This document shows positions 8,338 to 22,257 of a stretch of 22,257 nt of DNA, piece by piece. This DNA is from a virus, in IMG/VR virus record IMGVR_UViG_3300032223_000149, positions 1-22,257 of that record. The stretch is one strand, 5' to 3'. Position numbers and translations under genes: made by a program. The notes under the pieces were generated by a model. It ran no database searches and was not told the DNA's origin. It saw nothing but the letters and a program-made list of their open reading frames with translations. Each line of letters starts with the position of its first letter. The stretch's first letter is position 1.

Positions 8338-8568
8338 TTATACGTTGTAATAAGGAATTTTATAAGCATTACCGTTAACGGTGACATTTATAAATCCTAC
8401 TGGATTAGCTGGCAACGTAGCAGAACCAGCGGTTGCAGTCGTAGCACTAGAAAAATTAAGCAAATTAAGGAAAAACTGCTGCCATGCGCGGGATGGGCGG
8501 TTTGTGTTTGCATCCAAAAAAGGCGCTTGTGGATACGGATTAATTTGCTGTGTGTTACTTAGTGCCAT
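8338..8568 (-). CDS. Small conserved structural protein (76 aa), function unknown
   Basis: The start is the ATG at 8566-8568, which overlaps the upstream stop (TGATG); the frame is open one codon further at a TTG. The protein reads SNTQQINPYPQAPFLDANTN, then RPSRAWQQFFLNLLN and a beta-rich end with GSATLPANPVGFINVTVNG and AYKIPYYNV. From memory, this ending recurs in small phage proteins downstream of tail genes. By position it might correspond to the P22 gp26 tail-needle slot, but at 76 residues without a coiled coil it cannot be a classical needle. Its role is unknown. Confidence 0.7.
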   Translation of the reverse strand: MALSNTQQINPYPQAPFLDANTNRPSRAWQQFFLNLLNFSSATTATAGSATLPANPVGFINVTVNGNAYKIPYYNV

Positions 8569-10562
8569 CAATTTTCCCCATTTGTCGCTTTAAGATTTGC
8601 GGAAATAATTACCGCATTTACAGGGTCGCTAATCGACACCTCAAACACTCGATCACGAGCCATGCCCAAACGCCGCCAAATAGCGCGGTTTTTGTATTTG
8701 CCAATTTGACCTATGCTTGTCCAATATTCCCGCGACCAAGTAGAACCACCATCATTTGACCAGCGCAACATAGCTTGCGGGTTAGTTGTTGTTTGTGTCG
8801 TATCCGCAGTTTTAACGCCAATAATGTATTGGGAAAGAGGCTCAATTGTTAAGGTTGCAGTAGGCGCAATATTGTAAGTTGTGCCTAAATAAATTGAAGA
8901 TGTGTAGGACGATTGACTAAGTGAAAGACCAGTAGTTCCAACACCAGGCTGAAACTGAATTTGCAATTCATCAAAATATTGACGTTGCAAGTCTGTAACC
9001 AAATGAGGCGCACGGCGCAGCCTACGGACGTTTTGCCCGTTATCGGTATAGTTTTCTTTGTCTAAGTAATAGATTTTGCCGTTTTCATAGTCGCCAACTA
9101 AAACTAAACCTTGAAAAGAAGCCGAGCAATTACTACGGTGACGTTGGTACGTTCCATCCGAAGCCATAGACAACCATTTATGCCACATCCCAGTGGTGGA
9201 GTCATACGCCCATGTAAGGTTTAGCGTAGGAAAGGTCGTAACGTAAACTTCATGGCCTTCTAGCTGGTAAGTGTACGAAATAGCGTCATTGATATATTGG
9301 TTTGTCAGCGTGTTTTCTACCGCATGGGTTGATATACGCTGCGGGATATACCCGTTCATTTGCATGATTTGCGCTTGCCCTCGGTTGTTCCGAGATACAT
9401 AAGCGAACGAATTACCTAGCCGCGCAACAGAAAAAGGTGCTGCAATGCCGTGCTGGGTAGATGTGCCTGGAATTCTTTGAAACGGGAAAGGCACTGCACC
9501 CACATCGCTCCAAACCTCGGACGAAGATTCACCCATTAGGTAAACTTCCCGATGGTCAACAATTAAGGCCACCAACTTGTCCGAACTACCATCTTTAAAA
9601 GCGTAGCTAGTAGATGGCGAAATAGTGCTTAATAAGTTAGACGAACCCCATTGCTGTGTGCCAGGGTTGTTGTAGACAAAATAATTATCAATGATGTCTA
9701 CCGAAGTTCCACCGCTAAAAGCGCCATCCGTGCTTGGCAATACGCTAAAGTTAAGCGCATACATTGTTTGACCAACCGCAATAGTATGAGCAACACTAAT
9801 TGTATAAGTACCTATTCCACCTGTACCCGTGCCTAAAGCGGTAATGATTGTTCCCGCCGTAATGCCTGCACCTTGCAAGGTTTGGCCTAAATAAATAGTG
9901 CCAGAGGATACCGCAGACACAGTTAATGTAGTTCCTGCAATGGTCGCCGTAAACCTAGCACCAACAGCAGTAGACGTTAAAGGTTCAGCCAATACGGTTT
10001 GGCTAATGTTTACGTTATAGGTTCCTACGCCGCCCGTCCCTGTGCCCAAAGACGTAATCACGGTTTCTGCCGTTACACCGATACCCGTTAGGCTTTGATT
10101 AGCGGTAATTGTGCCGCTGCTAACATTTGTAACCGTTAGGGTAGTACCGCTAACAGAACCAGTAAATACGGCGTTTGCAGGGCTAGAAATGCGCCATGTG
10201 TACCGATAAGCCCCGTCCACAATATAAGCGTTTAAGCCGTTGTCAGAAATGCCAACCCGACCCGCCGAGGAATTAAGAATGCCGACAACCGTTGCGCTTA
10301 GATTAGACGTAAAGACGTAAACGTAAGGCCCACAAACAACGACCATTTGGCTGCCGCCCGACAAAGTACGCATTCCGCGCACCTCGGCATTGTTTAGCAC
10401 GGCTTGAAGGGTTAGCCCTGGCGTTGGGTAAAGCGCAACAATACCGCGAACACCAGGTTGTTTTAGTGGGTCAACTTCGGGAAAAAAGTTAATACATTCC
10501 TGCGATTCCTGATAAATCGAAGGTGCTTCGTATGATGGGCCAACAAAGCCAAAATCAGCCAT
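8568..10562 (-). CDS. P22 gp10-like tail hub / packaged-DNA stabilisation protein
   Basis: 664 aa. The N-terminus (GPSYEAPSIYQESQECINFF), the segment LYPTPGL, and the distal blocks (GDYENGKIYYLDKENYTDNG, RWSNDGGSTWSREYWTSIGQ, KYKNRAIWRRLGMARDRVFE) are the hallmarks of the P22 gp10 family. In P22 this protein closes the portal channel after packaging and carries tailspikes and needle. The next gene upstream is gp4-like, the usual neighbour. Residues about 133-265 hold two tandem copies of a Thr/Gly-rich beta module that P22 gp10 lacks, just before the LPSTDGAFSGGTSVDIIDNY segment. The Shine-Dalgarno is AAGG. Confidence 0.92.
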   Translation of the reverse strand: MADFGFVGPSYEAPSIYQESQECINFFPEVDPLKQPGVRGIVALYPTPGLTLQAVLNNAEVRGMRTLSGGSQMVVVCGPYVYVFTSNLSATVVGILNSSAGRVGISDNGLNAYIVDGAYRYTWRISSPANAVFTGSVSGTTLTVTNVSSGTITANQSLTGIGVTAETVITSLGTGTGGVGTYNVNISQTVLAEPLTSTAVGARFTATIAGTTLTVSAVSSGTIYLGQTLQGAGITAGTIITALGTGTGGIGTYTISVAHTIAVGQTMYALNFSVLPSTDGAFSGGTSVDIIDNYFVYNNPGTQQWGSSNLLSTISPSTSYAFKDGSSDKLVALIVDHREVYLMGESSSEVWSDVGAVPFPFQRIPGTSTQHGIAAPFSVARLGNSFAYVSRNNRGQAQIMQMNGYIPQRISTHAVENTLTNQYINDAISYTYQLEGHEVYVTTFPTLNLTWAYDSTTGMWHKWLSMASDGTYQRHRSNCSASFQGLVLVGDYENGKIYYLDKENYTDNGQNVRRLRRAPHLVTDLQRQYFDELQIQFQPGVGTTGLSLSQSSYTSSIYLGTTYNIAPTATLTIEPLSQYIIGVKTADTTQTTTNPQAMLRWSNDGGSTWSREYWTSIGQIGKYKNRAIWRRLGMARDRVFEVSISDPVNAVIISANLKATNGEN
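9768..9953 (-). repeat. Inserted beta module, copy 2 (gp10-like protein)
   Basis: Encodes residues about 204-265: FTATIAGTTLTVSAVSSGTI, AGITAGTIITALGTGTGGIG, TYTISVAHTIAVGQ. It is in tandem with copy 1, separated by about seven residues. Confidence 0.85.
9975..10166 (-). repeat. Inserted beta module, copy 1 (gp10-like protein)
   Basis: Encodes residues about 133-196: FTGSVSGTTLTVTNVSSGTI, a hydrophobic middle, then GTGTGGVGTYNVNISQTV. The copy at 9768-9953 and the one in the gp4-like gene share this pattern. Confidence 0.85.
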
Positions 10563-10587
10563 GTTTATACCTTAATAACGGAATAAG

Positions 10588-11559
10588 TCACCTCAAAAAT
10601 CCGCCCGTAAGTATCCAACCAGCGTCTTTAGAACGCCCCGTAAGCAACGCATCCGCATACCGCGAAACCATTTGTGGGCGCATATTGGTACGCTTGATTG
10701 TCGCTTTTGCTTCGCCTGCAAATTTTTGAATCATGCTGATTTGGACGGGGCTTGCTTTGCCATACATAGGCATTAGGCGTTCTGCCAAACACCAGCGCAA
10801 CGTATTTATGTAACCTTGCGGAATACGCATGATGTCGTACATGGTTGTAAAACGGGCAAAAATAGTATCCGTAAAGATGTGCATTTCGCCTTGCGCGGGA
10901 TTAGGCCAAACACTCAAATTACCCAAAGTATCACCAGGGTTGTAATACAAGGCTTTAGGCCAAGGGCCATTTAATGTTTTTAGACCAATTAATGAATAAT
11001 CGTCTAGCGTTAAAACCGCTACAGGGTAATCAAGACCGCCGTTTAAAATAGGCTGACCATTAGAAGTCGTGTTAATCCTTACATAAGCAGAATTTACACG
11101 CAATGGCTTTTGGTAATAACCTGTAATGGTTGTACTGGCTACCGTTTGGGATATGTTTACCTGATACGTCCCAGCTTCTAGAACATCACCGCCAGCGCCG
11201 CCAATAAACGACACAATGGACGTTCCTGCCGTAATTCCAGTGCCGGTTAAGGTTTGGTTTAGCGTGATAGCGCCTGACGTAATAGCCGTAACGGTTAGGA
11301 TGTTGCCCGTGATTGAGCCGGTAAAACTTGAGCCGACAGTACCGCCTGGGCCAATTGTGTATTGGGTTTGTCCATTAACTACGGGAAAAATAATTTCCGT
11401 GAAGTTATAGACCATCATATCTTCGTTAGACCATTGATCCAACATATCGTTGAGCATGTCGAACGCATCTTGCGCTGCTTCGGGCGTTGGCGTTTCACCG
11501 GCTTCCAATGCGCCGATGTCTTTTAACGATCTGGATACTATGTCGATTGGCTGGGCCAT
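10588..11559 (-). CDS. P22 gp4-like tail accessory factor / head completion protein
   Basis: 323 aa. The N-terminus ([20 protein letters not shown], then [20 protein letters not shown]) and the C-terminal half ([43 protein letters not shown]) fit the P22 gp4 family. That protein binds the portal ring and prepares it for the gp10-like protein. P22 gp4 is about 166 aa; this one is longer partly because of an inserted beta module at residues 79-147, placed between [10 protein letters not shown] and [11 protein letters not shown], which are normally close together. The start ATG has GGAG upstream and lies inside the end of the previous gene (22-base overlap). I do not see a peptidoglycan hydrolase motif. 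Confidence 0.9.
11119..11325 (-). repeat. Inserted beta module, copy 3 (gp4-like protein)
   Basis: Encodes residues about 79-147: [39 protein letters not shown], then [18 protein letters not shown]. The framework matches the two copies in the gp10-like protein. Confidence 0.85.
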
Positions 11560-11873
11560 TGTTGCTCCAAGGTAAACACAGGCGGTTTCCAGGGAGGCAC
11601 AACAGATTTCGTCTTACCAAGAAGCGCCAATTGTTCCTCTAACCGTGATTCTATTACATTTTTCCCGTATTGGGTCGCACCTTCCTTTATCCAAGAAATC
11701 ACCTGATCTTCGGTAACTTCGGCGTAAGGTGTCTTTACGTTGAACTTGTCAAAATCCCAATTTCCTTCAGTTTCCACTACATTTTTGTCATCAGTAGCTA
11801 AAACGTGATACTTAGCGTGGGTTATAACCTCGCCTTCTACGGAAATATCAAGAATTTTCCAAGTTGTAATCAT
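11538..11873 (-). CDS. Conserved small phage protein (111 aa), function unknown
   Basis: [20 protein letters not shown] opens a beta-rich domain of about 70 residues. It ends in [20 protein letters not shown] followed by the helix [13 protein letters not shown] and a Pro-rich tail ([10 protein letters not shown]). Small proteins with this start and the 'EDQVI.WIKE' segment recur among structural genes of aquatic phages, to my memory as an uncharacterised family. It sits between the fibre block and the gp4-like gene, so a virion or assembly role is plausible. The start overlaps the previous stop (ATGA). The stop is TAG and lies 22 bases inside the gp4-like gene. Confidence 0.78.
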
Positions 11874-12004
11874 TCTTTTTTTAATTGCTCTTTAGCTTCT
11901 TTTTGCAGCGCATCAATTAATTGGAATACTTCTTGATATGGACGCGAGCCAAGGTAAGCTAAAACTGAATTAAGCAAATTTACGGATAGGGATAGTTTGT
12001 TCAT
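11870..12004 (-). CDS. Very small conserved phage protein (44 aa)
   Basis: Found by hand between two larger genes. ATG at 12002-12004; TGA at 11870-11872 overlapping the next ATG (ATGA). The product MNKLSLSVNLLNSVLAYLGS continues with RPYQEVFQLIDALQKEAKEQ and a Lys-rich end, i.e. two predicted helices. Small proteins of the form 'MNK-x-LxxN-x-ILxxLGxxP...v..LI..lq' recur in phage structural regions, to my recollection, without known function. Tight packing on both sides (6 bases to the upstream stop) supports it as a real gene. Confidence 0.72.
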   Translation of the reverse strand: MNKLSLSVNLLNSVLAYLGSRPYQEVFQLIDALQKEAKEQLKKE

Positions 12005-12010
12005 TATTTA

Positions 12011-12385
12011 TTAAACTGAAGTAATGGTTTGCCATGCAGAGCCAGAATAAACGCAAAGTTTTGATAAAGTTGTATCAAATACAATTGTTCCTGCACTTGG
12101 TGTAATTGCGTTCTTTTGCGTTGTTGTCATGTTTGGAAAACGCACGCCCTTAGTAGTGCTTTGAGCGTCAATAATTGCAGTTGCAGCAGGAGAACTTGTA
12201 CCAATACCTACATTTTGGCTTGCGTCTATATAGACAGCGTTTGTTCCTGCCGTAGAGAAGCCTAGCGTAGTAGACGTAGGGAAATACATCCCCGTGTTGC
12301 TAGATGTCGTGTTGGATTCGGCAGGGGCTGCTGCGCTGCCAAGTACGTTTTGGATGCCAGCGGAGCCAGAAATTACGACTGTCAT
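12011..12385 (-). CDS. Small tail-fibre-type protein (124 aa)
   Basis: The N-terminus MTVVISGSAGIQNVLGSAAA resembles the M-x-x-x-ISG-x-x-GI opening of the 348-aa fibre upstream, suggesting a shared short attachment sequence. The middle carries the fibre motif NVGIGTSSPAATAIIDAQST and the end carries RFPNMTTTQKNAITPSAGTI and VYSGSAWQTITSV, both common in phage and bacterial tail-spike-like proteins. It is probably a minor fibre or adhesin component. The start overlaps the stop of the putative fibre chaperone (ATGA). Confidence 0.75.
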   Translation of the reverse strand: MTVVISGSAGIQNVLGSAAAPAESNTTSSNTGMYFPTSTTLGFSTAGTNAVYIDASQNVGIGTSSPAATAIIDAQSTTKGVRFPNMTTTQKNAITPSAGTIVFDTTLSKLCVYSGSAWQTITSV

Positions 12386-12546
12386 TGTGTTACCTCATCT
12401 GCGGGTAGGGGTTGGTTACCGGCCTCAATCCAAGCTAGGTATTGCTGGTAGTCGGTGTTGGCTTCATCTAGTGGAATACCAGCACTATCAGAAGTTCTAA
12501 TAATAATAGTTACTTCGTTTTGGTCGTTTTTGCCTAATTTATACAT
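12382..12546 (-). CDS. Putative tail-fibre assembly protein (XkdW-like, 54 aa)
   Basis: A short gene found by translating the gap. ATG at 12544-12546, one base after the upstream fibre stop; TGA at 12382-12384 inside the next ATG (ATGA). The protein begins MYKLGKNDQNEVTIIIRTSD and continues IPLDEANTDYQQYLAWIEAG and NQPLPADEVTQ. The signature 'IP.D..NTDYQ.YLAW...GN.P.PAD' is typical of small XkdW/tail-fibre-assembly proteins, which help neighbouring fibres fold or attach. Placement between two fibre genes fits a chaperone for one of them. Confidence 0.78.
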   Translation of the reverse strand: MYKLGKNDQNEVTIIIRTSDSAGIPLDEANTDYQQYLAWIEAGNQPLPADEVTQ

Positions 12547-12547
12547 T

Positions 12548-13594
12548 TTATAACTCCGCAAGAGAAGTGTATGTTCTTGAAAACCTATAACCGCCAGTTG
12601 CAGATACTGTGGTTTCGCCGCCAGCGGAATAAGTTGTAGAACCTAAATTTGCTTGTGATGTGCCAGCAGCAGTATTTGTGTTTAAAGTATCTGTATATGT
12701 AACTGTTGGTGTTGCACGCATAGTGACTGCAAAAGGCGCAATACCGCCCACAGAGCCGCCCGTAATGTTGTACCCTGACATTGCAAGAAAGCCGGTTTGA
12801 TAATACCTTTGACACAACATAAACTCCGTACCATAAGGCCTAAAGTCAAAGCTAGTGGCAGTGCTGCCTTTCTCTAGCTGTACGCCTGTGATATAAAAGG
12901 TAGCGTTAATAGTTGAAATAACTTGCGTTTGACCTGTTACACCAGATAAGTAAGACCCAGACCAAGCGTTTGCTGTTCCCAAATACGTTGAACCCACACC
13001 AAGCCCCCAAATCAGTTCAAGGCCAGTACCATTAGTTGTTAGCCATGTTCCGCTTGTATCGCCTGTCAATGTAATTGTTTTCTTTTCCCAAGTATCTGCT
13101 ACGCTAATTGTGTAACTAAATGGATAAGAACGATTTTGTCCGCCGTTTTGCAACGCACCACCAAAAGTGCCAGTAAGACTTGAACGAGTCCAAAAAGAAA
13201 AAGTAAACGTAGCCGCAGAAGCAGTGCCAAGACCAAAATCTGCTACGTTGTACCCTTCAATACGTTGCCCAATTTGATAGATTTGTGTTGCTCCAATAGA
13301 CGCATCAGCAGTTGTTACAGTTGCTTTTAACGAGTAAGTGAAACCCTGCCCAGTTGGAACGCTAGAATTTTGTTGAAGTGTAAACACACCATCTGATGTT
13401 TGACCATATCCATAAAAACGGTCTACGCTATATTGAAGAGCAGCAGTGTTGTTAATCGTTACAGCCGCCCCCGCATTACGCTGGTCTATGACCATGCCGC
13501 CGTTGATGATGCGGTTGCGATAGCCAAAGGTGCTAGCAGAGTCAAACTGACCCGCTAAGGTAATTCCCGTTGTACCCGAAATCGCTAACGACAT
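12548..13594 (-). CDS. Tail fibre / receptor-binding protein (348 aa)
   Basis: The opening MSLAISGTTGITLAGQFDSA is followed by RNRIINGGMVIDQRNAGAAV and YSVDRFYGYG. Later blocks are SFWTRSSLTGTFGGALQNGG, DTSGTWLTTNGTGLELIWGL and FYITGVQLEKGSTATSFDFR with PYGTEFMLCQRYYQT. This is a fibre domain widespread in phages, probably a lectin-like beta-sandwich that touches the host surface. The start ATG has GGAGAGCAACA upstream, located inside the last codons of the homing endonuclease (10-base overlap). A decayed second copy of this gene's first nine codons lies upstream of the endonuclease. Confidence 0.85.
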   Translation of the reverse strand: MSLAISGTTGITLAGQFDSASTFGYRNRIINGGMVIDQRNAGAAVTINNTAALQYSVDRFYGYGQTSDGVFTLQQNSSVPTGQGFTYSLKATVTTADASIGATQIYQIGQRIEGYNVADFGLGTASAATFTFSFWTRSSLTGTFGGALQNGGQNRSYPFSYTISVADTWEKKTITLTGDTSGTWLTTNGTGLELIWGLGVGSTYLGTANAWSGSYLSGVTGQTQVISTINATFYITGVQLEKGSTATSFDFRPYGTEFMLCQRYYQTGFLAMSGYNITGGSVGGIAPFAVTMRATPTVTYTDTLNTNTAAGTSQANLGSTTYSAGGETTVSATGGYRFSRTYTSLAEL

Positions 13595-14274
13595 TGTTGC
13601 TCTCCTTTATGTTTGCAATTATCAAAATGCCATCTGGTTGCTGCACCGCGACCATAGCCGCTTGTTTGGCAATGTGGGCATACCCATGTAAATTCCCTTA
13701 TGGATGCGGAAATTTTCTCAATTACATCTGGCCTGTGATTTTTACCTGCCATTGGGCTAACCTTACCTTTTAAACCTTGGCTTATCTTTGCCCGTGTTTC
13801 ATCTGTAAGTTTTTGCCCTTTTCTTGGCGAAGGCAAACCTAGCCTAAGCGACCTAGTTAACGCTAGTCTAGCAGGGTCTTTCATTGCTAAAAGCACAGCA
13901 TCACTAATTTTTTTCCTTGTTTCTGGGCCAGATTTTTTACCCTTGTTCCAAGGCGTAATACCCATCCTAAATTTGTTTCCAAAACTTACCGGCGGATTAC
14001 CGCCGCCAGCTACGCAGTTCCAGCCTATATCATCAGTTGGGCGCAGCTTGCGCTCAATATCCAAACAGTAATCGTTATCCGCAATCAAAATCTTGGTCTT
14101 TACCAAATTGTCCCAACCGTACTTATCAATAGCAAATTTAAGATGCCTATTTTCTGTTCGTTTGGAATGTTGAGTAAAACGAATATCTGCGTTTTTGGAC
14201 ACGCCAATGTACCCCTGACTCATCATGTCAGTGTGGTCTTGGCAACGTATCCAGTAAACGCTGCTTGCAGTCAT
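13585..14274 (-). CDS. GIY-YIG homing endonuclease (free-standing)
   Basis: 229 aa. The catalytic domain carries VYW at 6-8 and YIG at 22-24, with R32, H36, H44, E74 and N86 matching the key residues of I-TevI-type GIY-YIG nucleases. The middle has NUMOD-like DNA-binding repeats (GPETRKKISDA, LTDETRAKISQGLKG, RPDVIEKISAS). The C-terminus has a C2HC zinc-finger pattern (C199-x2-C202 ... H216-x3-C220, with RWHFDNC). All elements look intact, so the enzyme may be active. It sits between two fibre genes without an intron around it. Its start overlaps the stop of a 10-codon fibre remnant (ATGA), and its last codons contain the ribosome site of the next fibre. Confidence 0.93.
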   Translation of the reverse strand: MTASSVYWIRCQDHTDMMSQGYIGVSKNADIRFTQHSKRTENRHLKFAIDKYGWDNLVKTKILIADNDYCLDIERKLRPTDDIGWNCVAGGGNPPVSFGNKFRMGITPWNKGKKSGPETRKKISDAVLLAMKDPARLALTRSLRLGLPSPRKGQKLTDETRAKISQGLKGKVSPMAGKNHRPDVIEKISASIREFTWVCPHCQTSGYGRGAATRWHFDNCKHKGEQQCR

Positions 14275-14303
14275 TTGGTTGTGCCGGAGATTGCTAATGT
14301 CAT
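14271..14303 (-). pseudogene. Ten-codon remnant of a fibre gene 5' end
   Basis: Directly after the stop of the upstream gene (TAATG) lies ATG ACA TTA GCA ATC TCC, encoding MTLAISGTTK before a TGA that overlaps the endonuclease start. The downstream fibre starts MSLAISGTT. 20 of the first 27 bases match and the differences are almost all at wobble positions. I read this as the original gene start, separated from its body by insertion of the endonuclease. As a leader it may still keep ribosomes coupled into the endonuclease. Confidence 0.75.
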
Positions 14304-14848
14304 TATGCTGCCCTCACCATTGCTGCTTGGAAATATGTACTAGCTACACCTGAACCTATTGTGCTATTTGCACCAACAATTGCATACGCTTCAACATAAT
14401 CGGTTGAACCATTCATAAAAATAAGAGCTGAAATTGTAGTAACCACTACGCTAACATTATTGTAGTTCCCTGTCTTAAAAGAACTTCCATTTTTATATAA
14501 ATAAATAGCTGCCGCTATTGCAGAACCAGTAGAAAATGCGGCGTTAAATTGATAATAACCAGCAATTTGTGGTGTAAATCTATTAGTTAAATCGCCGTTG
14601 GTTACTACTGTTCCTGAACTAAAAGCAGACGCTGTATCAAATTCTTTTGTTTGAAAACTTATTTTTGTAGCAGTTGAAGCTGTAATGGCTTGACCAGAAC
14701 TCTGATAAGCGCTAAACGCTGGCCCGTTTACCGCAAGTGTTGCCGTAAGGTCAGGCAGCGTCAGAACTTGGGTATTGTTTGTATTAGGTGCGGCAATGGT
14801 CAGCGTGCCTGTGCCTGCTGCGTTGCCTTGGATTTTTACTACGCTCAT
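14303..14848 (-). CDS. Fibre protein with C1q/TNF-like domain (181 aa)
   Basis: The N-terminal 45 residues form a common phage fibre lead-in (MSVVKIQGNAAGTGTLTIAA, TQVLTLPDLTATLAVNGP). From FSAYQSSGQAITASTATKIS onward comes a jelly-roll type domain: FQTKEFDTASAF, FTPQIAGYYQFNAAFSTGSA, AAIYLYKNGSSFKTGNYN, TDYVEAYAIVGAN. This matches C1q-like domains seen on phage and bacterial adhesins. The likely role is a trimeric, receptor-contacting tip. The start has AAGGA upstream, overlapping the end region of the previous gene. The stop overlaps the remnant ATG (TAATG). Confidence 0.82.
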   Translation of the reverse strand: MSVVKIQGNAAGTGTLTIAAPNTNNTQVLTLPDLTATLAVNGPAFSAYQSSGQAITASTATKISFQTKEFDTASAFSSGTVVTNGDLTNRFTPQIAGYYQFNAAFSTGSAIAAAIYLYKNGSSFKTGNYNNVSVVVTTISALIFMNGSTDYVEAYAIVGANSTIGSGVASTYFQAAMVRAA

Positions 14849-14857
14849 ATTATTTCC

Positions 14858-14980
14858 TTAAACGACTGTCCAAACTGAACCCGTTGGAACGGTTACGGTA
14901 ACGCCAGTGTTAATTGACACAGGGCCAAAAGTACCAGCGTTGTAATTAGTAGTAATGGTGTAGTCCGTAGTCACCGTTTG
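14858..14980 (-). repeat. Duplicated C-terminal fibre tail, copy A
   Basis: Encodes TDYTITTNYNAGTFGPVSIN TGVTVTVP then TGSVWTVV. It is related in DNA and protein to 15494-15616; both end with the same coding bases just before the stop. Confidence 0.8.
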
Positions 14981-15478
14981 ACCATTTTGGATAAAAACTT
15001 GATCTGCTCCACCACCTGTAGCGCCACCGCCTACGCTTGTCCAGGTTGTTCCATTGTAGCCTTCAAACTTTGTGTTATCGCTATTAAAACGGATGTAACC
15101 AGAAGCGCCCGTAGGCCGTTGCGCCGTTGTTCCTACGGGAAGCAAAACCGCATCCGTAGAACTAATTGCTAGTTTTACCGCTGGAGAACTTGTCCCAATG
15201 CCTAAGTTTGTGCCGGTAAAAGTTAACCCCGTGGTTGAAGTTAGCGTAGTTGAACTGTTGGCAAAAAGAATGGTGTTTGGCGTATAAGAAGTTATCCCCG
15301 TGCCGCCACCAGCTACACCTAACGTAGCAAACGATAAAACGCCGCTTCCGTTTGTCAATAAAGCCTGACCATTACTGCCATCCGCGCTTGGCAGCGTGAA
15401 ATTGGTTGTGCTAGTCGTGTTAGGGCCAATTACATTAACTGCGCCACCTAACGTAGCTTGAAAAGTTAAAGTACCCAT
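14858..15478 (-). CDS. Tail-fibre protein (206 aa)
   Basis: Fibre-type motifs in order: TTNFTLPSADGSNGQALLTN, GVAGGGTGITSYTPNTILFA, NLGIGTSSPAVKLAISSTDA, LPVGTTAQRPTGASGYIRFN and NDNTKFEGYNGTTWTSV-like text (SDNTKFEGYNGTTWTSVGGG). These are repeated across many phage side fibres. The last 40 residues (TTDYTITTNYNAGTFGPVSI ... TGSVWTVV) are homologous to the C-terminus of the next gene upstream. AAAGGA lies before the ATG. Confidence 0.8.
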   Translation of the reverse strand: MGTLTFQATLGGAVNVIGPNTTSTTNFTLPSADGSNGQALLTNGSGVLSFATLGVAGGGTGITSYTPNTILFANSSTTLTSTTGLTFTGTNLGIGTSSPAVKLAISSTDAVLLPVGTTAQRPTGASGYIRFNSDNTKFEGYNGTTWTSVGGGATGGGADQVFIQNGQTVTTDYTITTNYNAGTFGPVSINTGVTVTVPTGSVWTVV

Positions 15479-15493
15479 TTTGTGTTCCTTTGA

Positions 15494-15616
15494 TTAAACG
15501 ACTGTCCAAACCGAGCCGGTAGCAATCGTGACCGTCACGCCGGTATTGACCGAAACAGGGCCAGCCGATAGGCCGTTATAACCCGCTGCAATTGTATAGC
15601 TTGTCGCCACCGTTGT
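15494..15616 (-). repeat. Duplicated C-terminal fibre tail, copy B
   Basis: Encodes TSYTIAAGYNGLSAGPVSVN TGVTVTIA then TGSVWTVV, matching copy A over about 38 residues. Confidence 0.8.
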
Positions 15617-15724
15617 GGCGTTTTGGATGATGCCGTTGGTGGAAATTTGAGTACCCGCAACCAATTCGCCCGTAGTCGGGTTGTAGTTCTCAGCTAACTG
15701 GGATAGGTTGCGGGGTATGCTCAT
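15494..15724 (-). CDS. Short tail-fibre-type protein (76 aa)
   Basis: The N-terminus MSIPRNLSQLAENYNPTTGE is an opening shared by many phage fibre genes. After a short linker it goes straight into the duplicated C-terminal tail ending TGSVWTVV. It looks like a minimal fibre made of only the attachment and tail modules. It may be a functional small component or what remains after deletion of a central domain. The start overlaps the upstream stop (ATGA at 15721-15724); the ribosome site is weak, which suggests translational coupling. Confidence 0.75.
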   Translation of the reverse strand: MSIPRNLSQLAENYNPTTGELVAGTQISTNGIIQNATTVATSYTIAAGYNGLSAGPVSVNTGVTVTIATGSVWTVV

Positions 15725-16011
15725 ACTTCAGTCCATTGGCAAGTTTGTTCGTCTAAGACGTAATTACCGTCTGGTTTAGGTGGAATAAACGCATCTCTTT
15801 GTGGGTCGTAGGTGTATCCAATTCCTGCGTAATTCTTACGAAACGGCGTGCCGCCTAACATATGTTGACCCGCTACAGTGTTGTAACTAGTTTTTTTCCA
15901 GATAGTTCCAGTCATTTCATGGTATATAGCCTCTCCATCAAGAGGTTCATCAACACCCACAATAACTCGAGTAACAATGTTGTTTTCGTCAATTTCTGCA
16001 AAATGTGCCAT
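15721..16011 (-). CDS. Conserved phage protein of the fibre region (96 aa)
   Basis: The sequence MAHFAEIDENNIVTRVIVGV, then GTIWKKTSYNTVAG, GTPFRKNYAGIGYTYDPQRD, AFIPPKPDGNYVLDEQTCQW is a pattern I associate with a conserved small protein found among tail genes of marine and freshwater phages. Its biochemical role is unknown. A virion component or fibre accessory is plausible from position. The upstream region is AT-rich with no clear Shine-Dalgarno; the upstream stop is 6 bases away. Confidence 0.78.
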   Translation of the reverse strand: MAHFAEIDENNIVTRVIVGVDEPLDGEAIYHEMTGTIWKKTSYNTVAGQHMLGGTPFRKNYAGIGYTYDPQRDAFIPPKPDGNYVLDEQTCQWTEV

Positions 16012-16016
16012 ATTAT

Positions 16017-17024
16017 TTATATCGGTGTAAACGATCCGCTGTTCTTAAATATATGGGTGACGTAACCGCCGCTAACATTTATTATGTCGCCACCGGTGGC
16101 TAAAGCTGCTGCTGCTGGGTATTTAATAATGACTACACCTTTACCTCCGTTGCCGCTTACCGAATTTCCTGTTCCAGTATGACACGCGCCGCCGCCACCA
16201 GAGCCGGTATAAACTTGACCAGCGCCGGGAAAATTTCCTGAAGTATAAATAGCGCCAGCACCACCACCCGCAGAACCCGGTGCAATACTTCCACCACTAC
16301 CTAAATTAGCATCTCTACTGCCTCCTCCTCCACCTGCAAATTGCACTTCTGCTCCAGTGACATAACCCACACTAGAACTTGTTGCAAGAGTAGTACTTAT
16401 TAAAGACGCTAAATTAGTGCCGATACCGCCCGTACCGGCAGGGGATGTTGTACCCACACCAGACGTTCCTGCGGCTCCAGAACCTCCTCCACCGCCGCCG
16501 TAACCTGCTGCTGTAGAGCCAAGACCACCAGCAAATCCTTGTCCACTGGTTCCTGCTGCATTTGTATTGGTTTCTGCCCCGCCGCCTCCACCTGAACCAC
16601 CAGATAATGGGCCGGGATTACCACTAAAGAATGCGCCGCCCCTACCGCCTCCTACTGTAGAGATAGATAGCCCCGTTCCAATAAGAGATGATGTGTTTCC
16701 GTTAGTAGGAGTGGAAGCACTACCCGCACCGCCAGCACCAACGATTACCGCATACGCGCCCGATCCCGCTGGAACTGTAAATGCCGTACCGCCGTTATTG
16801 GTTAATAAACCACCCGCGCCGCCGCCGCCGCCGTAATAATAAGAACCACCCGCGCCGCCTCCAGCAACAACTAAATATGTTGCGTTAATTGCGTTAGCAT
16901 TGGGCCATGCTCCTGTTTGCTGCGCTTGTAATTGATCAGATGTTTTCCAAATTCCAGCAGCAGCGCTAGAAGAATTTGTTGCCACAATTGGCGACATTAC
17001 AGAAGCCTTATATCTAGTAGACAT
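16017..17024 (-). CDS. Glycine-rich adhesin / tail fibre (335 aa)
   Basis: After MSTRYKASVMSPIVATNSSS and GIWKTSDQLQAQQTGAWPNA, the central 220 residues are dominated by Gly-rich runs (YGGGGGAGGLL, GGSGGGGGAETN, GYGGGGGGSGAAG, FAGGGGGSRDANLGSGG). A closing cap follows (GGKGVVIIKYPAAAALATGG, ISG-like NVSGGYVTHIFKNSGSFTPI). Glycine-rich phage adhesins of this kind can fold as polyglycine-II bundles, as shown for phage S16 gp38, with loops that bind the receptor. The call as adhesin is from composition and context. The start overlaps the upstream stop (TAATG). Confidence 0.8.
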   Translation of the reverse strand: MSTRYKASVMSPIVATNSSSAAAGIWKTSDQLQAQQTGAWPNANAINATYLVVAGGGAGGSYYYGGGGGAGGLLTNNGGTAFTVPAGSGAYAVIVGAGGAGSASTPTNGNTSSLIGTGLSISTVGGGRGGAFFSGNPGPLSGGSGGGGGAETNTNAAGTSGQGFAGGLGSTAAGYGGGGGGSGAAGTSGVGTTSPAGTGGIGTNLASLISTTLATSSSVGYVTGAEVQFAGGGGGSRDANLGSGGSIAPGSAGGGAGAIYTSGNFPGAGQVYTGSGGGGACHTGTGNSVSGNGGKGVVIIKYPAAAALATGGDIINVSGGYVTHIFKNSGSFTPI

Positions 17025-17395
17025 TAGGTAATAGCCTCATACGATGCCGTTAATTCAATTGCGCTTGCAGTTCCAACAGTCACCACAATAGACTGCGCTT
17101 CACCTAAGTAAAAGGCCGTGCTTTTGTCCACAATCACAATCGCGGCGTTGATCGGCACAGTTACTTGATAAATTAAACGATAGTTTGTACCTGCTCCAGC
17201 CGCTGCGCTATTAATTGCCACAGTTACAGTTGCCGCAGAGCCGGTTACATTTGCTGCAACAATGTTATCAATCTTATTAACCGTATTAGAAGCAGGCGTA
17301 AGCGCAGTCCAAGTTGTAGCCGATGTGGTGCTTGGGATTAAATAAGACGTATTTCCGTAAATGGATGTTACGTTGACGATATTTGGATTTGCCAT
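17024..17395 (-). CDS. Small conserved virion-type protein (123 aa)
   Basis: MANPNIVNVTSIYGNTSYLI opens an all-beta domain with DNIVAANVTGSAATVTVAIN, YQVTVPINAAIVIVDKSTAF and YLGEAQSIVVTVGTASAIEL. From memory this is a frequent structural protein of aquatic phages, encoded near fibre genes and with an immunoglobulin-like feel. Its role in the virion is not known to me. GAGG lies before the ATG. Confidence 0.78.
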   Translation of the reverse strand: MANPNIVNVTSIYGNTSYLIPSTTSATTWTALTPASNTVNKIDNIVAANVTGSAATVTVAINSAAAGAGTNYRLIYQVTVPINAAIVIVDKSTAFYLGEAQSIVVTVGTASAIELTASYEAIT

Positions 17396-17404
17396 TTTTT
17401 AACC

Positions 17405-20281
17405 TCAATATCCGAAGATCATCGCCATTGCGATACTCTTGCCCGTTGTAATTCCTGTGATAGCCGTGGTGATAACCAAGGCCTCTACGATGTCGCCTAC
17501 CGCGCAAGCCACGTTAAGGGTAAAACCTGTTCCGCTTGTGGCTGTGTAATCAGAGCCGGTTAACAACACGCCATTAACGTAGATTTGAAGGTAGCCAACC
17601 GCATAAGTTACCGTAAAAGCCGTTTGTCCTGCCGTAGCGGTAAAGGTTGTCCGAGTGTAGGCGCTTGCACCACCAGACGCATTTATCGTAACCGCGCCTG
17701 TGCCGCCAGCCGGTGAAATTGTGACGTTTGTACCCGCAACTATTTGTGATACGCCACCCGATGCTGCCGCCCAAGATGCCGTAGTGCCGTTAGAGGTCAG
17801 AACGTAGCCGTTTGCACCGATGCCTAATCGAGTGGCGCTATTTGTGCCGTTTCCGATGATTAGGTCGCCGGTGGTTGTGATGGGCGATAAAGCGTTGAAC
17901 GCTGCGCCTGCCGTGGTTTGACCTGTGCCGCCGTTTGCGATAGCCACCGTTCCCGTTACGTTAGCAGCATTCCCGCTAATATTGCCGCTTACTTGAGAGC
18001 CTGGCAGACTCAATGCGCTTAATGTGGTTAACGTGCTATTACTAGAGGCCGTGATATTTGCCGCTGTTCCCGTGGTGTTTTGGTTTAGCGTAGGAACATC
18101 AGCCGCTTGAATAGCCGACATTAAAACGTTTGTTCCATTACCCCGTAGGTAATAACCCGATGTCGTAGCCCCTGCAAACGCATTCATTGCCGTTTGTTGA
18201 GTGCTTGCACCCGACCCGCCATTAGCAATAGCCACAACGCCGGTAACATTTCCTGCCGTGGTTGCCGATGTCGCCGTAGACGCATTACCCGTCAAAGCGC
18301 CCACAAAAGTCGTAGAAGTGACCGAAGTTAAGCCAGCAATGGTTGTTGCAGTCCCGCCAAGGCTAACCGCAGTTGACCCGATTGTGATGCTGGAGTTAGT
18401 CAGCGCCCCATTAGGAATGTTTGTCAGGCTTGCGCCAGAACCGCTAAACACCGTTGCCGACAATGTGCCGGTGGACGGGACATATTGATATTTCGTTGAA
18501 CTGGTGTACTCAGTCGATAAAGTCCCGCTAGTGACAGAAGCAAACAAAGGATAACGGGTCGTAGCGGTAGTCGTATCGTCCGTAATCGTAATTGCGGAAG
18601 TAGGCGTTGTCCAAGTCGGCGTACCCGAAGCATTAGACGTTAAGACTTGCCCAGAAGTGCCCGCCGCAGTAAACGCATAAGACGTACCCGTGCCATACGC
18701 AACCGTGCCAGCAGTCGGAGTCGCTGTACCATTTGTTCCCCCGTTCGCAATTGGTAGCGTCCCTGTTACGCCGGTTGTTAAGGGTAAACCCGTGCCATTT
18801 GTCAGCGTTACAGAAGTTGGAGTGCCTAAAACAGGCGTTATTAATGTGGGACTAGTAGAAAGTACATTACTTCCAGAGCCGGTGCTGCTTGTTACGCCCG
18901 TGCCGCCCGATGCGACAGGCAAAGTGCCGGTGGTTAACGCCGAAGTTGACGTAGCGTAAACCGCGCCGCCCGAAGTAAATGTGGTTAGTCCCGTGCCACC
19001 ATTGCCGGTGTTTAATGTGCCAGCCAGCGTAATTGCGCCGTTTGTAGCCGAACTAGGGGTAAACCCTGTAGTTCCTGCGCTAAAACTTGTGACCGCTACG
19101 CCAGAAACAGATGACCATGCGGGTAAACCCGAGGAAACAGTTAAGACTTGTCCTGCCGAACCAATGCCCAACATTGCAGTCGTAGCCGATGCAGATTGAT
19201 AGGGAAGTGAGCCAGCCGCGCCGCCTGCAAGGTTTGTCGCCGTGGTTGCGGTGGTTGCCGAGCCTGCGGTTGTAGCCGAAGTCGCGGTAGCTGCATTTCC
19301 ACCAATAGATAAACCGCTTGCAGTGCCTGTTAAACCCGTGCCAGGGCCGCTAAATTGAGTGGCTGCGGTGATAGTGCTGCCACCAACCGTAGAACCGCTA
19401 ATTGGCGTTCCTGTGATTGAGCCGCCCGTAATGGATACGTTGTTTGCGTTTTGGGTGGACATTGTGCCCAGCCCCGAAACTTGCGTATTTGCAATGGCAA
19501 TTGCGGTGTTTGATGCGCTAGTTACTTGCCCTTGGGCGTTTATCGCTAATGTTGGAACACTTGAGGAAGTGCCATAAGAAGCCGCGCTAACTCCAGTATT
19601 GGCAATACTAAATGTGTAACTTGCAAGGCTTAGACCCGTTCCCGCAAAATAAGATGTTGCGCTGGCAAGTTGCGACCATGTGATATTGGTAACGCCTAAC
19701 GTTCCGCTTGTGGGGATAGTACACGCCCAACCCGAGTTTTGTTGCGTTGCACCATTTTGGATAAAGGTAAACGCAGATACAAGCGAAGCGTAAGTGTTTG
19801 CATCAGTTGACCGTGACCAAGCGCCTGTTGCCGCAACATAAATGCCGTTTTCCGTTTGATTGGTTTGGTTTTTTACCAATACCCTATCACCTACCAAAGT
19901 GGTGTAACCATCAATGGTTTGCAGGCCAGAAAGCGTAATGTTTATGGTTGTTGTTACCTGACATTCCGCTTTTATTTGATAGCCTTGGACGCTCATGTCC
20001 ACATAGGCTTTGTTTACTAAGTCCGTTGCGCCCGATGCAGTAGTTGAAACCGTGCCGGTGGTTGTTGCAATGTTAGTAAAAACGCCCGTTGACGGGGTTG
20101 TAGCGCCGATTGTGCTGCTATCAATCGTGCTGCTTGTAATGTGTAGACCTGATTGGTCTGGTGAAATTGTCGCCGTAAATGGCTGACCCTGCCCGATAAA
20201 CGTTTGGAACGTATTGTCCAGATTAAACAATGCCTGTACAGGCAGGATGTTTTGGTCTATCGTTTTAGCAGGGTCAGACAT
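17405..20281 (-). CDS. Long tail fibre, 958 aa
   Basis: This is the largest gene in the window. The N-terminus (NILPVQALFNLDNTFQTFIG) may attach to the virion. Next comes a domain with DLVNKAYVDMSVQGYQIKAE, GYTTLVGDRVLVKNQTNQTE and NGIYVAATGAWSRSTDANTY, common in phage fibres. The shaft is Thr/Ser/Gly/Ala-rich with repeated GTL/GTV-x-IANGG[TS]G units. The end is FTATAGQTAFTVTYAVGYLQ, IYVNGVLLTGSDYTATSG, a typical C-terminal fibre domain. The trimeric shaft and distal receptor tip are inferred. It ends 10 bases before the next gene. Confidence 0.88.
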   Translation of the reverse strand: MSDPAKTIDQNILPVQALFNLDNTFQTFIGQGQPFTATISPDQSGLHITSSTIDSSTIGATTPSTGVFTNIATTTGTVSTTASGATDLVNKAYVDMSVQGYQIKAECQVTTTINITLSGLQTIDGYTTLVGDRVLVKNQTNQTENGIYVAATGAWSRSTDANTYASLVSAFTFIQNGATQQNSGWACTIPTSGTLGVTNITWSQLASATSYFAGTGLSLASYTFSIANTGVSAASYGTSSSVPTLAINAQGQVTSASNTAIAIANTQVSGLGTMSTQNANNVSITGGSITGTPISGSTVGGSTITAATQFSGPGTGLTGTASGLSIGGNAATATSATTAGSATTATTATNLAGGAAGSLPYQSASATTAMLGIGSAGQVLTVSSGLPAWSSVSGVAVTSFSAGTTGFTPSSATNGAITLAGTLNTGNGGTGLTTFTSGGAVYATSTSALTTGTLPVASGGTGVTSSTGSGSNVLSTSPTLITPVLGTPTSVTLTNGTGLPLTTGVTGTLPIANGGTNGTATPTAGTVAYGTGTSYAFTAAGTSGQVLTSNASGTPTWTTPTSAITITDDTTTATTRYPLFASVTSGTLSTEYTSSTKYQYVPSTGTLSATVFSGSGASLTNIPNGALTNSSITIGSTAVSLGGTATTIAGLTSVTSTTFVGALTGNASTATSATTAGNVTGVVAIANGGSGASTQQTAMNAFAGATTSGYYLRGNGTNVLMSAIQAADVPTLNQNTTGTAANITASSNSTLTTLSALSLPGSQVSGNISGNAANVTGTVAIANGGTGQTTAGAAFNALSPITTTGDLIIGNGTNSATRLGIGANGYVLTSNGTTASWAAASGGVSQIVAGTNVTISPAGGTGAVTINASGGASAYTRTTFTATAGQTAFTVTYAVGYLQIYVNGVLLTGSDYTATSGTGFTLNVACAVGDIVEALVITTAITGITTGKSIAMAMIFGY

Positions 20282-20282
20282 A

Positions 20283-20627
20283 TTAGCTTTGATCGCCGAC
20301 AGGGGTTACATAAACCAATGAAGGGCCAGCCGCCGCGCCAATCATGCGAACATAAAAAGGCACAGTTGGGCAAGCCAGCACAATGGGCGAACTCATTGCA
20401 GCGGGAAGCAGAAAGTCGCCAGGCGTACCAGACACCGGCAACACAGCAGCCCCTACGTTAGCATCCCCCATTTTGACCGCAACGGCGACAGCGCCGGTGT
20501 TTAAGAACGAAGCAAAGTTAACTTGGTCGTTCGTTTGGTCTTCAACAATGGTTGCCGTAGTAGATGATGCTGTCACAGAAATAGCGGTTGTTTTACCCGC
20601 TAACCGTAAGACAGACGTATTAGCCAT
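20283..20627 (-). CDS. Small hypothetical structural protein (114 aa)
   Basis: MANTSVLRLAGKTTAISVTA, TIVEDQTNDQVNFASFLNTG, VAVKMGDANVGAAVLP and FLLPAAMSSPIVLACPTVPF describe a compact all-beta protein without charge clusters or membrane segments. It resembles small capsid- or fibre-associated phage proteins, but I cannot name a family. It has no clear Shine-Dalgarno and starts 3 bases after the upstream stop, so coupling is likely. One base separates it from the long fibre start. Confidence 0.72.
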   Translation of the reverse strand: MANTSVLRLAGKTTAISVTASSTTATIVEDQTNDQVNFASFLNTGAVAVAVKMGDANVGAAVLPVSGTPGDFLLPAAMSSPIVLACPTVPFYVRMIGAAAGPSLVYVTPVGDQS

Positions 20628-20629
20628 GA

Positions 20630-21070
20630 TTAAAGTTGGGCAACGTGAACGATGCCAAAATTAAGAGTCAAGGCTTCACTTAAAGAGCCGCCGCTTGCGT
20701 TGGAAATCACAATGGTAAATGAACCATTGGCAACTGCCGCAATTGAAAGCAAATAAGTTCCAGCAGTAGCAGCGCCAGAGGCCAATGCAACAACAGGAAT
20801 ATCGTAAGCACTAACTGCGCTATTTGTAACTACAAACGCAACTTCAGCCGCCGCTGCAAGTGCCGCATTGTTTGTCACAATTTGGCCTGCTGCTGCATTG
20901 ATTGTTACGCCAGTAGATTTGCTAGTCGCCTGAGTGACAGAAGAAACGGCAGTAGTAGGGCTACCAGTGGTGTAACCCATTTGGCCTGTTACAGAATTTA
21001 CTAGGGAATAGTTGGCATCGATAATATCTTGGTCAAGATATGCTGCGCCAATTGCTTGGGAGTTTGACAT
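20630..21070 (-). CDS. Conserved structural protein, possibly head fibre (146 aa)
   Basis: The central part, TQATSKSTGVTINAAAGQIV, TNNAALAAAAEVAFVVTNSA, GSFTIVISNASGGSLSEALT and NFGIVHVAQL, is a pattern I have seen in small phage proteins encoded beside the coat gene and sometimes annotated as head fibre or decoration proteins. The function is inferred from this and from position. It is the first gene after the terminator, with AAGGA close before the ATG and a TATAAT hexamer farther upstream. Confidence 0.75.
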   Translation of the reverse strand: MSNSQAIGAAYLDQDIIDANYSLVNSVTGQMGYTTGSPTTAVSSVTQATSKSTGVTINAAAGQIVTNNAALAAAAEVAFVVTNSAVSAYDIPVVALASGAATAGTYLLSIAAVANGSFTIVISNASGGSLSEALTLNFGIVHVAQL

Positions 21071-21126
21071 TTTGATTCCTTAAAAAAAGAATAGGTAAAT
21101 TATAAAAGAAAAGGCCACCCTGTAAT
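21071..21126 (-). promoter_or_regulatory. Candidate promoter after the terminator
   Basis: On the minus strand, ATTACA (21121-21126) and TATAAT (21099-21104) are 16 bases apart, ahead of a Shine-Dalgarno AAGGA and the ATG at 21068-21070. The -10 box is perfect but the -35 box matches TTGACA at only 4 of 6 and overlaps the terminator loop. The region is AT-rich, so chance is possible. Confidence 0.35.
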
Positions 21127-21139
21127 AGAGTGACCTTTT
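21096..21139 (-). terminator. Intrinsic terminator downstream of head genes
   Basis: Minus-strand arms at 21128-21139 (AAAAGGTCACTC) and 21109-21120 (GGGTGGCCTTTT) form a 12-base stem with two G.U pairs and a 7-base loop, followed by the T-rich run TTCTTTTATAATTT. On the plus strand the tail is not T-rich beyond the stem, so it should act on minus-strand transcripts. It separates the coat/head gene pair from all downstream late genes. Confidence 0.8.
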
Positions 21140-21148
21140 CATGGAGTC

Positions 21149-21167
21149 ATTTCAGATTAGCTGAAAT
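21149..21167 (-). repeat. Perfect 7-base inverted repeat over a stop codon
   Basis: ATTTCAG and CTGAAAT flank ATTAG, with the TAA stop of the 144-aa gene (21157-21159) in the loop. A small hairpin could form just before the terminator; its role is unknown. Confidence 0.6.
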
Positions 21168-21591
21168 CGTAGCCGTAAACGTATACGTCAAACGTAGCAC
21201 CAACAACGACTGAGGACAGTCCTGCGGTTACATTCAAGTACAGGTTTTGTACAGTTACTGCGGTGGTCGATGCCGAAGGAGCAACCAGCGACACGCCTTG
21301 AGGGGTACTCAAGTTAGCCGCAGTGATTGCGCCGTACAAGCTAGAACCACCCGAAGTAGTTGCTACGCCCAATGCCAAACCAGTAGGGGTAACCGAAGCG
21401 CCCGAATTGTTCAGATTGGTAACAATCAGACTTTGCGGCAAAAATACCGTGCTGTTTGTTACTTGGATAGCGTAGTTGCCGGTTGTGTTTGCATTTACGC
21501 CTTTGATAACACCAATGACTCGCAGAGTTTGATTGGTGGTTACATTGGACGGATGCGAAGAAACCGTAGTTGCTGGGCCTGGATTTGCCAT
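21157..21591 (-). CDS. Head-associated hypothetical protein (144 aa)
   Basis: This gene directly follows the coat protein gene (18 bases apart) and has a strong AAAGGA ribosome site. MANPGPATTVSSHPSNVTTN and TLRVIGVIKGVNANTTGNYA lead into an all-beta, Thr/Ser/Val-rich sequence ending YLNVTAGLSSVVVGATFDVY. It has no motif I recognise. A capsid decoration or stabilising role is plausible from adjacency to the coat gene and from the shared terminator-bounded transcript, but it is not shown by sequence. Confidence 0.75.
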   Translation of the reverse strand: MANPGPATTVSSHPSNVTTNQTLRVIGVIKGVNANTTGNYAIQVTNSTVFLPQSLIVTNLNNSGASVTPTGLALGVATTSGGSSLYGAITAANLSTPQGVSLVAPSASTTAVTVQNLYLNVTAGLSSVVVGATFDVYVYGYDFS

Positions 21592-21609: not shown

Positions 21610-22257
21610 TTAAGCTGCGATACGGCAGGCCAACTCAGGATAGAGAGGCGCCCAACCATACAAGACATCAAGACGGGTTGGAATTGAGTCGTTATTGATG
21701 GTGTACTGACGCACAACACGCATAGACAGACCGATTTCCTTATCGCTTGCACGACCAGCAAAGTGAACGCCATCAGGCAGTTCCAAGTCAGCGACTGCAA
21801 GCGTAAACGCATTGCGGTGCATCATAATGTTTTGCGGGGAGGCCACGCCGGTGTTGTTAAACGCCGTAATGTTTTGCGAACCGCTAGAGGTAACGCTAAC
21901 GTTTTGGAATTGACCAGCAGTGATAACTGCGGGAGAAACCGTTACGTTAGTAGCGCCAGTGCCGACAGTCGTGGTGGACAGAACTACGAAGTTACGCAGC
22001 TTGCCATACGATTGACGATTCTGTGGGTTGACAGCGTAAACACCAGGGATGGTGAAAGTGTCGCCAGCATTCAGAGTTGATGCCGAAGAAGCGGTCATAG
22101 ACAAAGTGCTGCTGTAAGCCCAACCAGAGGACAAGAAGCCAGTAGCCGTTGTTACGTTGATTGCAATGGTGTTTGCGCTCCACGAACCAAAGGTTTGGCT
22201 TACAACGTTCTGGTCTAGTTTCCAGTTAACGCCAGCGGAATCACGACCCATCAAGCC
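21610..22257 (-). CDS. P22-type major coat protein, C-terminal half (5' end cut)
   Basis: The frame is open to the right edge, so the gene starts outside. The visible 215 residues compare with about 430 in P22 gp5. The end is characteristic: MHRNAFTLAVADLELPDGVH, FAGRASDKEIGLSMRVVRQY, DSIPTRLDVLYGWAPLYPEL, ACRIAA. The segment before it (SANTIAINVTTATGF, LNAGDTFTIPGVYAVNPQNR, Thr/Val-rich strands) is consistent with the inserted I-domain region of P22-like coat proteins. It assembles the icosahedral head. It is the first visible gene of the late block, with scaffold, portal and terminase expected just beyond the window. Confidence 0.9.
   Translation of the reverse strand, partial: GLMGRDSAGVNWKLDQNVVSQTFGSWSANTIAINVTTATGFLSSGWAYSSTLSMTASSASTLNAGDTFTIPGVYAVNPQNRQSYGKLRNFVVLSTTTVGTGATNVTVSPAVITAGQFQNVSVTSSGSQNITAFNNTGVASPQNIMMHRNAFTLAVADLELPDGVHFAGRASDKEIGLSMRVVRQYTINNDSIPTRLDVLYGWAPLYPELACRIAA

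Follow-up and report, generated by a model that had tools for sequence, protein, structure and literature searches.

A module of about 65 residues was found once in the gp4-like portal adaptor and twice in tandem in the gp10-like nozzle protein of a P22-like podovirus, and it is probably an old, promiscuous, non-immunoglobulin (non-Ig) decoration domain carried in loops of two neighbouring tail rings. The window, that is the whole stretch of 22,257 bases analysed (an IMG/VR record), represents by its gene content the structural half of a P22-like podovirus, and the virus carrying it is of the lake type with an ordinary P22-like tail machine. A partial P22-type coat protein gene was found at 21613-22254, and further genes encode a lysozyme, a DNA-ejection-like protein and fibre proteins. 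The gp10-like head-closure/nozzle protein (8568..10562, minus strand; 664 aa) matched phrog_578, head closure Hc3 (E 2e-95), and the needle head protein of Pam1 (7eeq; E 2.8e-16), and by these sequence matches it belongs to the P22 gp10-type head closure proteins. The gp4-like portal adaptor (10588..11559, minus strand; 323 aa) matched phrog_12985 (E 7e-39) and, in a profile search, P22 gp4 (E 1.2e-5). Its model was superimposed on P22 gp4 (8u10_m) with Z 15.1 and rmsd 2.1 over 112 residues, and the helical-bundle fold together with the profile match places it among the P22 gp4-type adaptors. Between the coat gene and gp4, about 10 kb (11538-21591) is occupied by fibre-like and small beta-rich genes, including a 958-aa protein matching head-decoration and tail-fibre PHROGs. 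A homing endonuclease with a NUMOD3 motif (13585-14274; phrog_314, E 2e-23) lies amid the tail-fibre genes, and in MW202674 an endonuclease gene is placed between gp4 and gp10.

All three module copies lie on the minus strand. In the gp10-like protein, copy 1 covers residues 133-197 (9972..10166; profile E 6e-26), followed by copy 2 at residues 204-268 (9759..9953; E 4e-26), and the gp4 copy covers residues 79-148 (11116..11325; E 8e-25). With a profile built from the modules of related loci, the E values of the three window copies were about 1e-24 to 1e-25; tblastn from gp10 copy 1 reached gp10 copy 2 at E 1.9e-17 and the gp4 copy at E 1.3e-13. The three copies are true homologues, as the earlier note on this DNA had proposed. 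No further credible module was found among the window ORFs by the profile search, the next best match having E = 0.0025 (10.9 bits). The GTGTGGVGTY turn, which had been described as a general feature of the module, is missing from the gp4 copy of the window and was present in just 51 of the 226 modules of a sample chosen independently of the turn. At the DNA level the copies were found to be 51-59% identical, as measured on locus L004, a stand-in both of whose proteins are 100% identical to those of the window; because of this low identity the copies are regarded as old.

The window proteins were aligned to those of 12 annotated relatives. Two Manatee Spring genomes (MW202520 and MW202674) contained the module in gp4 and none in gp10, whereas the other 10 relatives contained no recognised module in either protein. 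The gp4 proteins of nine relatives, including Rhodoferax phage P26218, Pseudomonas phage PAE2 and Vibrio phage VvAW1, were 232-249 aa long, the module-free length, against 323 aa in the window; module-free gp10 was about 456-491 aa long against 664 aa, and the gp10 of MW202520 reaches 528 aa because of an unrelated C-terminal insert. The ordinary relatives of the two window proteins thus lack the module. In the gp4 alignment the module fills exactly one gap, from '...YTIGP' to '..RPL....A', and in the gp10 alignment the tandem pair fills one gap, from 'Y.W.SP' to '.F..LP', after core column 103. Each insertion is therefore a single block between segments that are adjacent in the module-free relatives, and the description of a clean insertion stands. 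Inserts of at least 20 residues after gp4 core column 70 belonged to module-bearing proteins in 181 of 192 cases. At the same gp4 site, Xanthomonas phage PBR31 and its relatives (L389, L562, L564-L567) were found to contain a divergent insert of the VSG..GIPAGATVTAI type, which in a profile comparison matched the module weakly (probability 63%, E 7e-5, 38 columns). A tblastn search of INPHARED with the gp4 module returned three records, all from Manatee Spring; the same search with the gp10 module returned 0 matches, the low-complexity filter probably masking the query.

The module is predicted to be a small all-beta barrel that folds autonomously. With gp10 copy 1 alone as AlphaFold2 input, supported by an alignment of 142 diverse modules, the mean pLDDT was 97.2, and strands were found at residues 2-19, 26-30, 37-41 and 50-69; the first and the last strand are long, so that insertion into a loop is easy to picture. 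The closest solved fold was chain 1 of the Arthrobacter phage Bridgette particle (8eci_1; Foldseek E 0.028, TM 0.75; VIA-align Z 7.2, rmsd 1.9, 63 residues), a Z score that falls in the warning range of the tool and may reflect only a common arrangement. It was followed by the F1-ATPase N-terminal barrel and an IF2 domain (Z about 5.5). These scores suggest a common small-barrel arrangement, short of proving kinship. The 8eci chain is a head component with no detectable sequence relation to the module, whereas the module is an insert in tail proteins.

In the full gp4 model (mean pLDDT 81.7), strands E52-59, E66-69 and E152-232 were found between the helices, and the module was placed between E66-69 and E152-166 of this beta region, keeping its own strands at 75-95, 103-105, 114-120 and 131-148. 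Residues 76-152 of this model again matched 8eci_1 and translation-factor barrels, and the models accord with the earlier view of a separate domain. P22 gp4 lacks the module, as had been stated, and the beta region in which it lies in the window protein is also mostly missing from P22 gp4. The match of the model to T7 gp11 (Z 10.9) extends over 164 residues, longer than that to P22 gp4 (112). By fold and profile the window hosts belong with the T7 gp11/P22 gp4 adaptors and the P22 gp10-type proteins. T7 gp11 contains a five-strand fibre dock that P22 is without (PMC6702177), and since the module lies in the beta region of the model that seems to correspond to this dock, it is probably located at the outer adaptor-nozzle groove.

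No Pfam or NCBIfam family matched the module at E up to 1, except for chance matches to FeoA and RecA, and no sequence relatives were found in the PDB, 8eci chain 1 included. Matches to antibody light chains in the PDB (E 0.09-0.9) are apparently due to chance similarity to 'FTGSGSGT', and in the fold search antibody chains appeared only at E above 5 and probability below 0.05, the best matches being 8eci_1 and F1-ATPase barrels. No sequence match to the Ig-like classes Big_1, Big_2, I-set and FN3, which are the ones reported from phages (Fraser et al. 2006, as described in PMC9022992), was found, and by none of the sequence tests is the module an Ig domain. The comparison with Ig-like domains made in the earlier note holds as an analogy only. 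According to PMC9022992, phage Ig-like domains are small beta domains, promiscuous in virion proteins and absent from some relatives, as is the module; they occur in tail tube, capsid, baseplate and fibre proteins, and sometimes lie within a core domain as in YSD1, and the module is likewise inserted. The module differs from them in its predicted barrel, which is nearest to a phage capsid chain and to the F1-ATPase/translation-factor barrel, and in that its host proteins also include portal adaptors, nozzles, sheaths and neck terminators. The profiles of PHROG 21413 (function unknown) and PHROG 38233 (tail fibre) contain the module and matched the three window modules at E 3e-12 to 4e-7, so that these belong to them, and nearly all module hosts match them; both are whole-protein families and not definitions of the module. 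No description of the module was found in the open literature, the search covering papers outside subscription.

Among the homologues collected (271 unique gp4 and 278 unique gp10 sequences), the numbers of modules in gp10 and gp4, respectively, were 2 and 1 in 97 rows, 0 and 0 in 86, 0 and 1 in 66, 0 and 2 in eight, 3 and 1 in one, and 4 and 1 in one; in the remaining rows gp4 was absent from the sequenced stretch examined. Modules in gp10 beside a module-free gp4 were found in 0 cases in this set. The pattern is nested: no module, a module in gp4 only, or a module in gp4 together with two in gp10. Outside the set, below its coverage limit, a distant gp10-like ORF (L203:1299-4840) was found to contain one module after other repeats, a different context, and the neighbouring gp4-like ORF was module-free. 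On a tree of 111 rows made from core columns only, with the root not inferred, the module in gp4 required one change (a clade of 55 rows, support 100), the modules in gp10 one change (25 rows, support 99, nested within the gp4 clade), and the doubling of the gp4 module four changes. No loss was found inside either clade on this tree. The direction 'gain' rests on the outer groups without the module, because the root was not inferred, and the PBR31 sister group, with its divergent insert at the same gp4 site, implies that the gp4 insertion may predate the 55-row clade. The module has been inherited vertically since insertion, with repeated later additions. In the gp10 of L198, L190, L192, L159, L218 and L374, another kind of repeat, about 70 residues long (TGGTGYAVNDTITV...GLTLTLTFG), was found to interrupt module 2 after the 'AGTxIT' strand and before the 'GTGxGGTGTY' hairpin, and in the gp10 of L254 a fourth module is apparently nested in the third, giving domains within domains.

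Other hosts were sought in three DNA-pattern samples, two drawn from viral contigs and the third from bacterial genomes. In the first viral and the bacterial samples, 216 host ORFs beyond gp4 and gp10 were found, falling into 95 clusters, and the module was internal in 200 of them. The host families include DUF3383 tail sheath proteins, neck terminators, cement proteins of the XM1 gp53/E217 gp24 type, Phage_cement, baseplate J, capsid, gpD-like decoration and tail-fibre proteins, and the module was also found in viral structure models, one of them of an HK97-type capsid protein. In the tail sheath of L304 and the neck terminator of L346, the Pfam match was split into two stretches, one of them starting directly behind the module. 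The module is common to virion proteins of many unrelated phages and prophages; its presence in gp4 and gp10, on which the earlier note had focused, is real but not special to them. Two bacterial genomes contained 7 and 8 modules, entirely or almost entirely clustered in some 17 kb of a single contig. In the bacterial genomes L348 and L369, neighbouring prophage-like structural genes carry one or two modules each (ORFs of 236, 310, 342, 509 and 818 aa, and of 328, 333, 479 and 663 aa, respectively), and these clusters suggest the decoration of a whole myophage-like particle. A cellular origin of the module was rejected, since within one bacterial order it was present in only 2 of the 150 genomes, one of them chosen for having it, and the hosts in bacterial genomes were mostly phage structural proteins where the family was recognised. 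Unexpectedly, collagen-repeat proteins of the giant virus Indivirus ILV1 (BFVD A0A1V0SCQ2 and A0A1V0SDM6) were found to contain a domain sharing 51% and 36% identity, respectively, with the module.

By a counting method, with dS near 1, the dN/dS of the gp10 modules was found to be 0.097 against 0.077 for the gp10 core, and that of the gp4 module 0.089 against 0.069 for the gp4 core. The module is under purifying selection almost as strict as that on the core, and rapid change, as would be expected if it determined host range, is not apparent; such low values are compatible with any conserved role.

The insertion and the distribution of the module are firmly supported, and its display on the virion surface is likely; no assembled-virion structure bearing the module was found. 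With 12 gp4 and 6 gp10 subunits as in P22 (PMC5850374), gp4 and gp10 would each contribute 12 modules to a virion. The position of the gp4 modules, which is probably that of the fibre dock in T7 gp11, would direct them outwards in the groove between adaptor and nozzle. By analogy, the modules might then serve as a constant surface decoration making weak contacts, either adhering to the cell envelope or to neighbouring fibres, a role like that thought for phage Ig-like domains and different from specific receptor binding. An adhesive or cementing role is a hypothesis at this stage. It is rather unlikely that the module is instead a cement that bridges adaptor or nozzle subunits, stiffening the head-tail junction or shaping the fibre-docking groove, without contact to the host cell. 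The nearest solved fold, the 124-residue Bridgette chain (8eci_1), is a putative cement protein, and dimeric capsid cement proteins have been reported from this phage (PMC13033339); some module hosts are themselves cement proteins (Phage_cement, XM1 gp53), and the strong purifying selection would suit such a role. However, a protein may contain anything from 0 to 4 modules, and these can themselves house other domains, which is hard to reconcile with a precise interface, and the module also occurs in contractile tail sheaths and in tail fibres.

Concerning origin, the gp10 copies may have arisen by duplication or conversion from the gp4 copy in the same lineage, which would be compatible with any function and which we consider unlikely. 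Both proteins bear the module, the gain in gp10 is nested in that in gp4, and the identity between the two gp10 copies (0.557) slightly exceeds their identity to other modules; but the gp10 copies were no closer to gp4 modules (0.51, 0.52) than to modules of unrelated proteins (0.52, 0.54), and the 64 alignment columns of a module tree are too few to resolve the origin of the gp10 pair. Among 32 gp10/gp4 pairs below 90% core identity, the protein identity of gp10 copy 1 to copy 2 was 0.550 in the same genome and 0.552 in different genomes, whereas copies at the same position were 0.64-0.72 identical across genomes. This lack of any within-genome excess argues against the gp4 origin, rules out recent gene conversion among the three window copies, for which a DNA check had been proposed, and gives no support to the suggested spread by recombination between repeats. 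Nor was any recent exchange at the DNA level between unrelated host genes found in a set of 1,170 modules, among which 0 pairs from different protein classes (gp4, gp10, other) reached at least 80% DNA identity; module pairs at this level among the other hosts had a similar flank in all but 1 of 64. In the doubled gp4 proteins, the second module was 0.46 identical to the first (few rows) and, not being its copy, looks like a separate recruit.

A reading of the insertions as passengers that permissive loop tips tolerate, kept folded but without selected function, is very unlikely: the same gp4 site accepts one module, two, or a divergent insert, and the module tips accept further domains, but there is no loss inside either clade, dN/dS is near 0.09 and close to that of the core, and the module recurs in many different virion proteins. 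A wider reading is put forward tentatively: the module may be a general decoration currency of freshwater and soil tailed phages, inserted independently into nearly every external class of virion protein, often into several of these classes in one phage, with a shared adhesive or cement function over the whole particle.

Few promiscuous domains are known to be grafted on many phage virion proteins, mainly the Ig-like ones, and the module would be a second, unrelated and very common one that is missing from Pfam and NCBIfam. Once defined, it would allow many unannotated inserts to be named and would prevent misannotation by the module alone, for example as 'tail fiber' through phrog_38233. Because module-free and module-bearing relatives share the same tail machine in a nested series, its function in decoration is directly testable.
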